This document shows, in pieces, positions 14,909 through 17,332 of a DNA stretch of 40,459 nt. The translations under genes were made by a program, and so were the position numbers. The stretch spans positions 1 through 40,459 of the forward strand of contig JACUUM010000020.1 of the NCBI GenBank assembly GCA_014859305.1. The letters are read 5' to 3'. Every line of letters begins with the position of its first letter. Position 1 is the first letter of the stretch. Below the pieces are notes generated by a model. The model had not been told where the DNA came from, ran no database searches, and saw only the letters and a program-made list of their open reading frames with translations. The stretch comes from Coriobacteriia bacterium. GTDB taxonomy: Bacteria > Actinomycetota > Coriobacteriia > Anaerosomatales > Kmv31.

Positions 14909-17332
14909 ATGGACATGTGGATCCAGGTCGCCGGGGCGACGGGGAAGCCCCGACCCACGGTGCTGGTGGTGTTCGGCGCGACCGGTGACCTGATGGCGCG
15001 CAAGATCGCGCCCGCCCTGCACCACCTCTGGACCGAGGACCGGTTGCCGTCGCGCTTCGAGGTCGTGGGCTTCTCGCGGCGCGACTGGAGCGACGACCAG
15101 CTCCGCGAGCACGTCTCGGGCATCCTGCGCCAGCGCTTCCACGCGGCCGACGAGTCCTTCCTCGGGATGTTCCGCTACCACCGCGGGACCTTCGAGGACG
15201 ACGCGGCGTACGGGCGACTGGCCGACGACTTGCGCCGGCGCGACGACGAGGCGGGCGAGTGCGCCAACAAGCTCTTCTACCTGGCCGTGCCCCCGGAGCA
15301 CTACCGTGTGATCCTCGGGCGGCTGGCCTCCTCCGGGCTCACGCGGCCGTGCAGCGACGAGGAGGGGTGGACACGCGTGCTCGTGGAGAAGCCGTTCGGC
15401 AAGGACGTGGCCACCTCCCGGGAGCTCGACGAGCTGCTGGGCTCGCTGTTCGCCGAGGAGCAGGTCTACCGCATCGACCACTACCTCGCCAAGGAGATGC
15501 TGCAGGGCATCCTGTCCTTCCGCTTCTCGAACAACCTCTTCGAGCCGTCGTGGACGGCCGAGGCCGTGGAGCGCATCGACATCACCCTGCTCGAGGAGAT
15601 CGGGGTCGAGGGTCGGGCGGGCTTCTACGACGGCGTGGGAGCGCTGCGCGACGTCGGGCAGAACCACCTGCTGCAGATGCTCGCGCTCGTCACGATGGAC
15701 CGCCCGCGGGTGATGGACGCCTCCTCCATACGGGCGCGGCGCGCGGAGGCCCTGCGGCGGCTGCCGCGGCTCTCCCCGCAGCAGGCCGCCGCTTCGTCGT
15801 TCCGCGCGCAGTACGAGGGGTACCGAGGCATCGAGCGCGTGGACCCGCACTCCACGACCGAGACGTACTTCAAGCTGCGCACCACCCTGCGCGACCCGCG
15901 CTGGGACGGCGTACCGTTCACCCTGGAGTCGGGAAAGCGGCTGCCCGAGGTCCGGAAGCGCATCGACGTCACCTTCCGCCACCCGCAGCCGTGCCTGTGT
16001 CCCCCCGACGGGCGGCACGTGCGCAACCGGGTCAGCTTCACGCTGGAGCCGGAGGAGGGCATCCACATCGGGTTCTGGGCCAAGCGGCCGGGGCTGGAGC
16101 TGCGCCTGGAGGAGCGCCGCTTCGACTTCCTGCTCTACGAGCAGGGCCGCGCGCCGTACGTGGAGGAGTACGCCAAGCTGCTGCTCGACGCCGTCCTCGG
16201 TGACCAGACGCTCTTCGTCTCCACCGAGGAGGTCCGCGCGATGTGGGGGTTCATCGACCCCTTCCTGCGCGCGTGGGCCGAGGACCTCACTCCGCTCGCG
16301 AGCTACGAGCCGGGCTCCGCGGCCATCCTGGAGCAGGCCGACCGCTCGGTGGAGGGCCGCGCGCCGCTGGTGCAGGCGCAGGGGGTGCGCCGCGAGATCG
16401 CCGTGATCGGCCTCGGCAAGATGGGCTCGGGCATAGCGCGGAACCTGCTCGACCACGGGTGGCGCGTGGTGGGCTGGAACCGCACTCACGCGGTGGCCGA
16501 GGGGATGGCCGCGGAGGGCCTCGAGCCGGCCCGCACCTTCGCCGAGGCCGTGCGCGCGCTCACCCCGCCGCGCGTGGTGTGGATGATGCTGCCCGCGGGG
16601 GCGGTGACGGAGGAGGCGTTGCTGGGAGAGGCGGGCGTCGCGCGCCTGCTGGAGCCCGGGGACGTGCTGGTCGACGGAGGGAACTCCTTCCACGCGGACA
16701 CCGCCGCCCGAGCGCGTGGCATCGTCGAGCTGGGGGTGGACTTCCTCGACTGCGGGACCTCCGGGGGGCCCGCGGGAGCGCGCAACGGGGCCTGCCTCAT
16801 GATCGGCGGACGCCGCGAGGCCTTCGAACGGTTGCGGCCGCTGTGGGAGGATCTGACCGTCCCCGGCGGTTTCGCCTTCTTCGAGGGCCACGGCGCCGGC
16901 CATTTCGTGAAGATGGTCCACAACGGCATCGAGTACGGGATGATGCAGTCCGTGGCCGAGGGCTTCGCGATCCTGCGCGCCTCCCCCTACGGGATCGACC
17001 TGCTGAGTGCCGCCGAGGTCTACGCCCATGGCAGCGTGATCGAGTCGCGCCTGCTGGGATGGCTGCGCGGCGCGTACGAGACCTGGGGGACGGAGCTCGA
17101 GGGCGTGTCGGGCGTCGTGGGCCGCACCGGCGAGGGGGAGTGGACGGTGCGCGCCGCCGAGGAGCTCGGCGTGCCCGCGCCGGTCATCGCGCGCTCGCTT
17201 CGCTTCCGGGTGGAGAGCGAGGCGGCGCCCAGCTACGCCGGGCGGGTGCTCTCGGCGCTGCGCAGCATGTTCGGCGGCCACGCTGCCGAGCGCGAGGCGC
17301 AGGTCGAGGCGGCCGCCAGGGGGCGCACGTAG
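14909..17332 (+). CDS. Glucose-6-phosphate dehydrogenase / 6-phosphogluconate dehydrogenase fusion (Zwf-Gnd)
   Basis: One uninterrupted 807-aa frame carries two full enzymes of the oxidative pentose phosphate pathway. Residues 15-485 are G6PDH: nucleotide-binding GATGDLMARK (24-33), EKPFGKD (160-166), substrate motif RIDHYLAKE (188-196) and the catalytic-base region DVGQNHLLQM (His253). Residues 495-807 are a short, GndA-like 6PGDH: GLGKMGSG (501-508), WNRT at the end of the second strand (suggesting NADP+), DGGNS (589-593), DCGTSGGPAG and HFVKMVHNGIEYGMM with catalytic Lys668 and Asn672. The linker of about 10 residues (LVQAQGVRRE) is short. No 6-phosphogluconolactonase domain lies between. 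The ATG at 14909 has GGAGG 4 nt upstream; ATG 14915 and GTG 14855 are alternatives. Every key residue appears present in both halves. Confidence 0.93.
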   Translation: MDMWIQVAGATGKPRPTVLVVFGATGDLMARKIAPALHHLWTEDRLPSRFEVVGFSRRDWSDDQLREHVSGILRQRFHAADESFLGMFRYHRGTFEDDAAYGRLADDLRRRDDEAGECANKLFYLAVPPEHYRVILGRLASSGLTRPCSDEEGWTRVLVEKPFGKDVATSRELDELLGSLFAEEQVYRIDHYLAKEMLQGILSFRFSNNLFEPSWTAEAVERIDITLLEEIGVEGRAGFYDGVGALRDVGQNHLLQMLALVTMDRPRVMDASSIRARRAEALRRLPRLSPQQAAASSFRAQYEGYRGIERVDPHSTTETYFKLRTTLRDPRWDGVPFTLESGKRLPEVRKRIDVTFRHPQPCLCPPDGRHVRNRVSFTLEPEEGIHIGFWAKRPGLELRLEERRFDFLLYEQGRAPYVEEYAKLLLDAVLGDQTLFVSTEEVRAMWGFIDPFLRAWAEDLTPLASYEPGSAAILEQADRSVEGRAPLVQAQGVRREIAVIGLGKMGSGIARNLLDHGWRVVGWNRTHAVAEGMAAEGLEPARTFAEAVRALTPPRVVWMMLPAGAVTEEALLGEAGVARLLEPGDVLVDGGNSFHADTAARARGIVELGVDFLDCGTSGGPAGARNGACLMIGGRREAFERLRPLWEDLTVPGGFAFFEGHGAGHFVKMVHNGIEYGMMQSVAEGFAILRASPYGIDLLSAAEVYAHGSVIESRLLGWLRGAYETWGTELEGVSGVVGRTGEGEWTVRAAEELGVPAPVIARSLRFRVESEAAPSYAGRVLSALRSMFGGHAAEREAQVEAAARGRT

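Follow-up and report, generated by a model that had tools for sequence, protein, structure and literature searches.

A zwf-gnd fusion gene conserved across an actinobacterial order and predicted to encode a bifunctional pentose phosphate pathway enzyme

The genome of a Coriobacteriia bacterium (assembly GCA_014859305.1) contains a gene in which a complete glucose-6-phosphate dehydrogenase (G6PDH, Zwf) and a complete short-type 6-phosphogluconate dehydrogenase (6PGDH, Gnd) are joined in a single chain. It lies within a window of 40,459 nucleotides, the whole stretch of DNA analysed here (contig JACUUM010000020.1, positions 1 to 40,459). We consider it likely, with a probability of roughly 0.8 for the three parts jointly, that the gene encodes a bifunctional, NADPH-forming enzyme of the oxidative pentose phosphate pathway (PPP), that it had a single origin from a zwf-gnd pair of the kind seen in Patescibacteria, and that it was transferred to the actinobacterial order to which this genome belongs. 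The gene and its parts are as follows.

14909..17332, + strand: zwf-gnd fusion gene, predicted bifunctional G6PDH/6PGDH of 807 aa (translation, Pfam, NCBIfam, order-wide conservation)
14894..14908, + strand: Shine-Dalgarno-like sequence GGAGGCGAGG, directly 5' of the ATG at 14909 (sequence)
14966..16321, + strand: G6PDH (Zwf) part, residues 20-471, G6PD_N and G6PD_C (Pfam, alignment, Foldseek)
16322..16387, + strand: interdomain linker of ~22 residues, about 472-493 (predicted structure, linker comparison across fusions)
16394..17293, + strand: short-type 6PGDH (Gnd) part, residues 496-795 (Pfam/NCBIfam, alignment, 6PGDH structures)

Gene architecture and active-site residues

The 807-aa translation of positions 14909-17332 (+) has zero internal stops and is covered by domains of both enzymes. 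Pfam places G6PD_N at residues 20-199 (E 1.6e-52) and G6PD_C at 203-471 (2e-76), followed in the Gnd half by NAD_binding_2 at 496-648 (7.5e-42) and the 6PGD C-terminal domain at 664-773 (4e-17). The NCBIfam zwf model TIGR00871 matches residues 16-471 with 444 bits against a curated cut-off of 401, and the curated cut-offs of two short Gnd models are likewise passed (NF007161, 325 versus 271 bits; TIGR00872, 309 versus 297). No 6-phosphogluconolactonase (6PGL) domain (PF01182) was found on the fusion chain in the Pfam scan of the protein. Translation, Pfam and NCBIfam agree with an earlier note on this DNA, which had described one unbroken 807-aa frame with a full G6PDH and a full short 6PGDH, joining steps 1 and 3 of the pathway and leaving out the lactonase of step 2. 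The stretch 14909-17332 is a genuine single-chain fusion of a complete Zwf and a complete short-type Gnd.

A start at the ATG at 14909 is plausible because GGAGGCGAGG lies directly upstream, and it is further supported by homologues, which start at a similar short distance ahead of the first strand. The reading frame stays open 5' of 14909 as far as 14576; this extension is not conserved. Directly upstream of the fusion, positions 14571-14720 (+) hold a small hydrophobic ORF of 49 aa, which we take to resemble the lmo0937-type membrane peptides.

Residue conservation was scored over an alignment of 38 fusions, with equivalences drawn from motifs and alignment only. In the Zwf half, K161 (EKPFG), D190/H191/K195 (RIDHYLAKE), H253 (QNH), and K343 (ESGKR) are invariant in 38/38 fusions, as is the FGATGDL loop, and the catalytic positions align with those of Leuconostoc G6PDH (1dpg). 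The Gnd half is equally invariant at N592 (GGNS), S618-G620 (SGG), K668, H671, N672, and E675, the last four of which sit in HFVKMVHNGIEYG; it thereby retains the catalytic Lys and Glu of KMVHNGIEYG together with the SGG and GGNS substrate loops, and it also has GLGKMG and NRT (524-526). These invariant residues presumably correspond to those tied to catalysis in Leuconostoc G6PDH and sheep 6PGDH. N524 and R525 are nearly invariant among the fusions, with the consensus NRT, and the NRT motif of the Gnd half together with R57/R58 of the Zwf half suggests NADP+ use in both halves. The alignment matches the earlier statement that every key residue is present, and the NRT motif fits the proposal, made there from a WNRT motif, that the Gnd half would use NADP+.

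Conservation across the order

A full-length fusion is present in 45 of the 61 sampled genomes of the same order, at 58-66% identity. Among the remaining 16, seven have no match and the others have partial matches, mostly genes cut by a contig end; most of the genomes compared are draft MAGs. In every retrieved locus of the order (L118 and L119 included) the junction is free of stops and frameshifts. The possibility that the frame is an assembly or sequencing artefact, or open by chance, can be regarded as negligible: the same fusion recurs in 45/61 order genomes from separate assemblies, and this recurrence, together with the junction frames checked, excludes a frame open by chance as well as a sequencing error local to 16370-16400. 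The missed stop or frameshift in that interval, named earlier as what would undo the fusion, is not borne out by the intact junctions of the relatives. Two genomes, G027 and G001, have two full-length fusion copies each. The order is probably OPB41/Anaerosomatales (class Coriobacteriia), since loci L003 and L004, labelled Slackia sp. Tomsk_69_21 and Coriobacteriia GL140_5, have the same linkers as G030 and G035. Outside the order, no zwf-like or fused match was found in the class sample, nor did a PF00479 search find any among the 13 class members in its listing.

Predicted structure and linker

The AlphaFold model has a mean pLDDT of 84, with both halves well ordered at high confidence, and Foldseek returns Leuconostoc G6PDH (1dpg) as the best fold match of the Zwf half (target TM 0.88). 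The linker is modelled as a helix (472-490) with a low-confidence stretch at 485-492. The pTM is 0.63, and the relative placement of the two halves is therefore unsure. The model suggests two autonomous folds tied by a short helix plus a low-confidence break.

If the frame yielded two separate enzymes, by an internal start in the linker or by cleavage, the fusion would be nominal only. Cleavage has been proposed for some diatom metabolic fusions (PMC2173943), and the linker here does contain in-frame GTG codons. However, only 6 of the 38 fusions have an ATG in the linker and only 3 of the 38 a start with a Shine-Dalgarno sequence, at positions that are not conserved, and the fusions all keep 18-29 aa (median 23) from PLxxY to the first Gnd strand. 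With no conserved internal start in the linkers of the 38 fusions, such a start is ruled out as a general feature, and we think it highly improbable that the product is two separate proteins rather than one chain.

Genomic context

The fusion is the sole PF00479 match in this 98%-complete genome, and no second functional zwf or gnd was found in it. The only other gnd-like gene is a paralogue of 325 aa on contig 39 (G000:C39, L002:985-1962, +), located after an SDR gene. It reads HNGILYG where 6PGDH has HNGIEYG, leaving it without the catalytic Glu, and it has YDRR where NADP enzymes have NRT or NRS; for these two reasons it is probably not a normal 6PGDH. A complete separate zwf and gnd elsewhere in the genome had been put forward as a test of the fusion, and the outcome favours the fusion. 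Its flanking genes are as follows.

13141..14421, + strand: upstream neighbour, seryl-tRNA synthetase (serS, identified by eye), syntenic in most genomes of the order
17465..19117, - strand: convergent neighbour with an N-terminal hydrophobic segment, PEGA domains, and a beta-propeller with weak Lactonase/SGL matches

The gene order serS, fusion, convergent PEGA/propeller gene, SLOG-family gene is largely kept in the order, with the PEGA/propeller gene syntenic with the fusion. Only these three neighbours were taken from the neighbourhood clustering, which is noisy because of antisense frames in DNA of 72% G+C. The fusion gene looks monocistronic. Elsewhere in the window, positions 28485-31112 (-) and 32853-33725 (-) encode LigD and Ku, the bacterial end-joining pair. 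A multihaem cytochrome (Cytochrome_C7/c3-like) at 7265-9839 (-) adjoins what by eye appear to be cytochrome b6/subunit IV and Rieske genes, in an apparent electron-transfer cluster.

Distribution and origin

Fused genes are also present in Patescibacteria (loci L006, L007, L011, L013, L014, and L043), in the bin that holds locus L008, and in two further actinobacterial families (L009/L235 and L234; L236). Many other Patescibacteria have adjacent but separate zwf and gnd genes in the same order, and in some of these pairs the stop and start overlap as ATGA, so that a single indel would fuse them. The Parcubacteria genome G306 has both a fused gene (L013) and a separate adjacent zwf-gnd pair (L029). 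Locus L237 in genome G610 is closely related to the fused f89 gene, and its linker contains a stop, reflecting either recent fission or a sequencing error. Viral carriage of the fusion was considered and rejected, since none of the 80 viral contigs examined is fused. Viral contigs L154-L188 carry zwf and then gnd in tandem and in the same frame, a near-fusion arrangement in which the zwf stop is only a few codons from the gnd start.

In a concatenated Zwf+Gnd tree all fused rows form one clade (98/96) with three label changes, and with the extra families included the fused clade is retained (98/93) with four. This clade is nested among Patescibacteria with adjacent separate zwf-gnd genes. A constraint that groups the Patescibacteria to the exclusion of the order is rejected (p-AU 9e-27, with a log-likelihood lower by 160); the group tested was defined once the tree was known. 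Letter composition varies among the tree rows, and many Patescibacteria rows are deviant. The Gnd-only tree is weak, and so it is chiefly the Zwf half and the concatenation that support a single origin.

Several independent fusions of adjacent zwf and gnd genes, in Patescibacteria and in actinobacteria, would account for the same distribution. Same-direction adjacent pairs are common in Patescibacteria, some with overlapping stop and start, and the Gnd-only tree requires 7 label changes. However, both concatenated trees recover a single supported fused clade with only 3-4 changes, and linker length is similar in all fusions. Repeated fusion keeps some weight, but we consider it an unlikely course. 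The simplest reading is that the genes fused once and later split again in Kaiserbacteria, Giovannonibacteria, and one family-f89 genome. From the nesting of the fused clade and the rejection of the separate-Patescibacteria constraint, we infer that the gene probably passed from a Patescibacteria-like source to the ancestor of the actinobacterial order.

The missing lactonase

In 57 of the 61 order genomes PF01182 has no match at all, and in the other four it has weak matches. Three of these four were examined (L114, L116, L117) and are NagB-like by sequence; L114 and L117 adjoin a glmM-like gene. A divergent PF01182 protein was rejected as the missing lactonase given that all three read as NagB-like. 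PF10282 matches adjoin the fusion in many genomes, where they correspond to the convergent PEGA/propeller neighbour. This protein was also rejected as the lactonase in view of its N-terminal hydrophobic segment, PEGA domains, and generic propeller, the same features that suggest it is probably exported. Matches to PF10282 and PF08450 (SMP-30) are otherwise mostly weak propeller-repeat matches, with strong SMP-30-type matches in one genome.

Beyond the order, PF01182 was absent from all three genomes with the fusion that were sampled in the other two actinobacterial families and from three more genomes searched alongside (one with an interrupted junction, two without the fusion). In the 25 genomes that were reached through loci, most of them Patescibacteria, it is present in 1/12 of those in the fusion clade versus 8/13 of those with basal split genes. 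The one exception within the fusion clade is the bin of L008; the count leaves aside a weak match in the L005 genome, which covers the same ranges of the profile as that of the NagB-like L114.

These figures make the association of the fusion with PF01182 absence suggestive only. In the phylum sample, 22 of the 110 other genomes with zwf, most of them without a known fusion, also have no PF01182, and it is missing too from the fission lineages with separate genes. Since the tree offers only about three independent contrasts between fusion and lactonase loss, the association cannot be tested. Moreover, 6-phosphogluconolactone can open spontaneously (PMC3148214), and because it does so at some rate, the absence of PF01182 is no proof that the fusion stands in for a lactonase.

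Proposed function

The N-terminal half would oxidize glucose-6-phosphate to 6-phosphogluconolactone, which would leave the Zwf site and open to 6-phosphogluconate, either spontaneously or through some lactonase. The C-terminal short-type 6PGDH half would then oxidize and decarboxylate 6-phosphogluconate to ribulose-5-phosphate, with NADPH predicted to be made by both halves. The fusion would set a 1:1 dosage of the two dehydrogenases and keep both near each other. It most likely originated once, from an adjacent zwf-gnd pair that lost the stop and start at its junction, and the fused gene would then have passed to the ancestor of the actinobacterial order, serving there as the sole G6PDH. The fusion is probably functional, and the economical reading is of two autonomous dehydrogenases tied for fixed 1:1 dosage and nearness.

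A different role would be to channel the lactone or 6-phosphogluconate between the two sites, or to speed lactone opening, such that a separate lactonase becomes needless. The fused genomes without a recognisable PF01182 6PGL (57/61 in the order, the three of the other families, and 11/12 in the fusion clade) are consistent with this role. It is opposed by the 22/110 other genomes and the fission lineages that equally have no PF01182, by the small number of independent contrasts, by the capacity of the lactone to open by itself, and by the chain, which has only a short linker and no lactonase domain or extra insert. We regard channelling or assisted opening as unlikely. The fuller proposal, an oxidative PPP without a dedicated 6-phosphogluconolactonase in which the lactone is retained, opened, or handed on by the fusion itself, a self-sufficient unit acquired by the order from Patescibacteria, is a doubtful one to which we give little credence. 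The earlier suggestion that the product could channel 6-phosphogluconate runs ahead of the evidence, as the structural model shows each half folding on its own, with a short helix and a low-confidence break in between.

Relation to known fusions

Fusions of G6PDH with 6PGL are known from Plasmodium (GluPho), Giardia and Trichomonas, and metazoans (H6PD). They likewise combine PPP enzymes around G6PDH, but join steps 1 and 2, whereas the present fusion joins steps 1 and 3. The short-type 6PGDH (NF007161/TIGR00872, with solved relatives 6vpb, 8ihe, and 4e21) makes up the whole C-terminal half and exceeds both cut-offs; it is normally a free protein of ~300 aa, and here it is fused. TIGR00872 is named as NAD-dependent, whereas the NRT motif of the present fusion points to NADP. 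The adjacent zwf-gnd genes of Patescibacteria and viral contigs share the arrangement, with Gnd directly following Zwf in many, but remain separate genes.

The earlier note knew of no described Zwf-Gnd fusion enzyme, but a precedent exists in the diatom Phaeodactylum tricornutum, for which a G6PDH/6PGDH fusion was reported by Kroth et al. 2008 (PMC2173943). Its gene model was later doubted: Stover et al. 2011 (PMC3148214), who found no second G6PDH/6PGDH fusion in nr, point out that the gene had been divided on re-annotation, 'casting doubts on its legitimacy'. As in the present case, the diatom model predicts a single chain in which a short spacer separates G6PDH from 6PGDH, and it leaves out the lactonase. 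However, Phaeodactylum is a eukaryote in which the fusion is one of two G6PDH copies, in a genome with other 6PGDH copies and 6PGL, whereas the present fusion is bacterial, lineage-wide, and the sole zwf, with a Gnd half of the short type. No bacterial Zwf-Gnd fusion was found in the literature among open-licence papers.

Previously known oxidative PPP fusions thus combine G6PDH with the lactonase and occur in eukaryotes, and the only Zwf-Gnd report found is the doubted diatom model. The gene described here is a bacterial Zwf-Gnd fusion kept across an order as its sole G6PDH, and its split relatives can still be seen in Patescibacteria. The fusion offers a natural case for testing whether the linking of two NADPH-forming steps leads to channelling or only to a fixed dosage, and it also bears on how the pathway can run without a recognisable lactonase and on gene flow between Patescibacteria and other bacteria.
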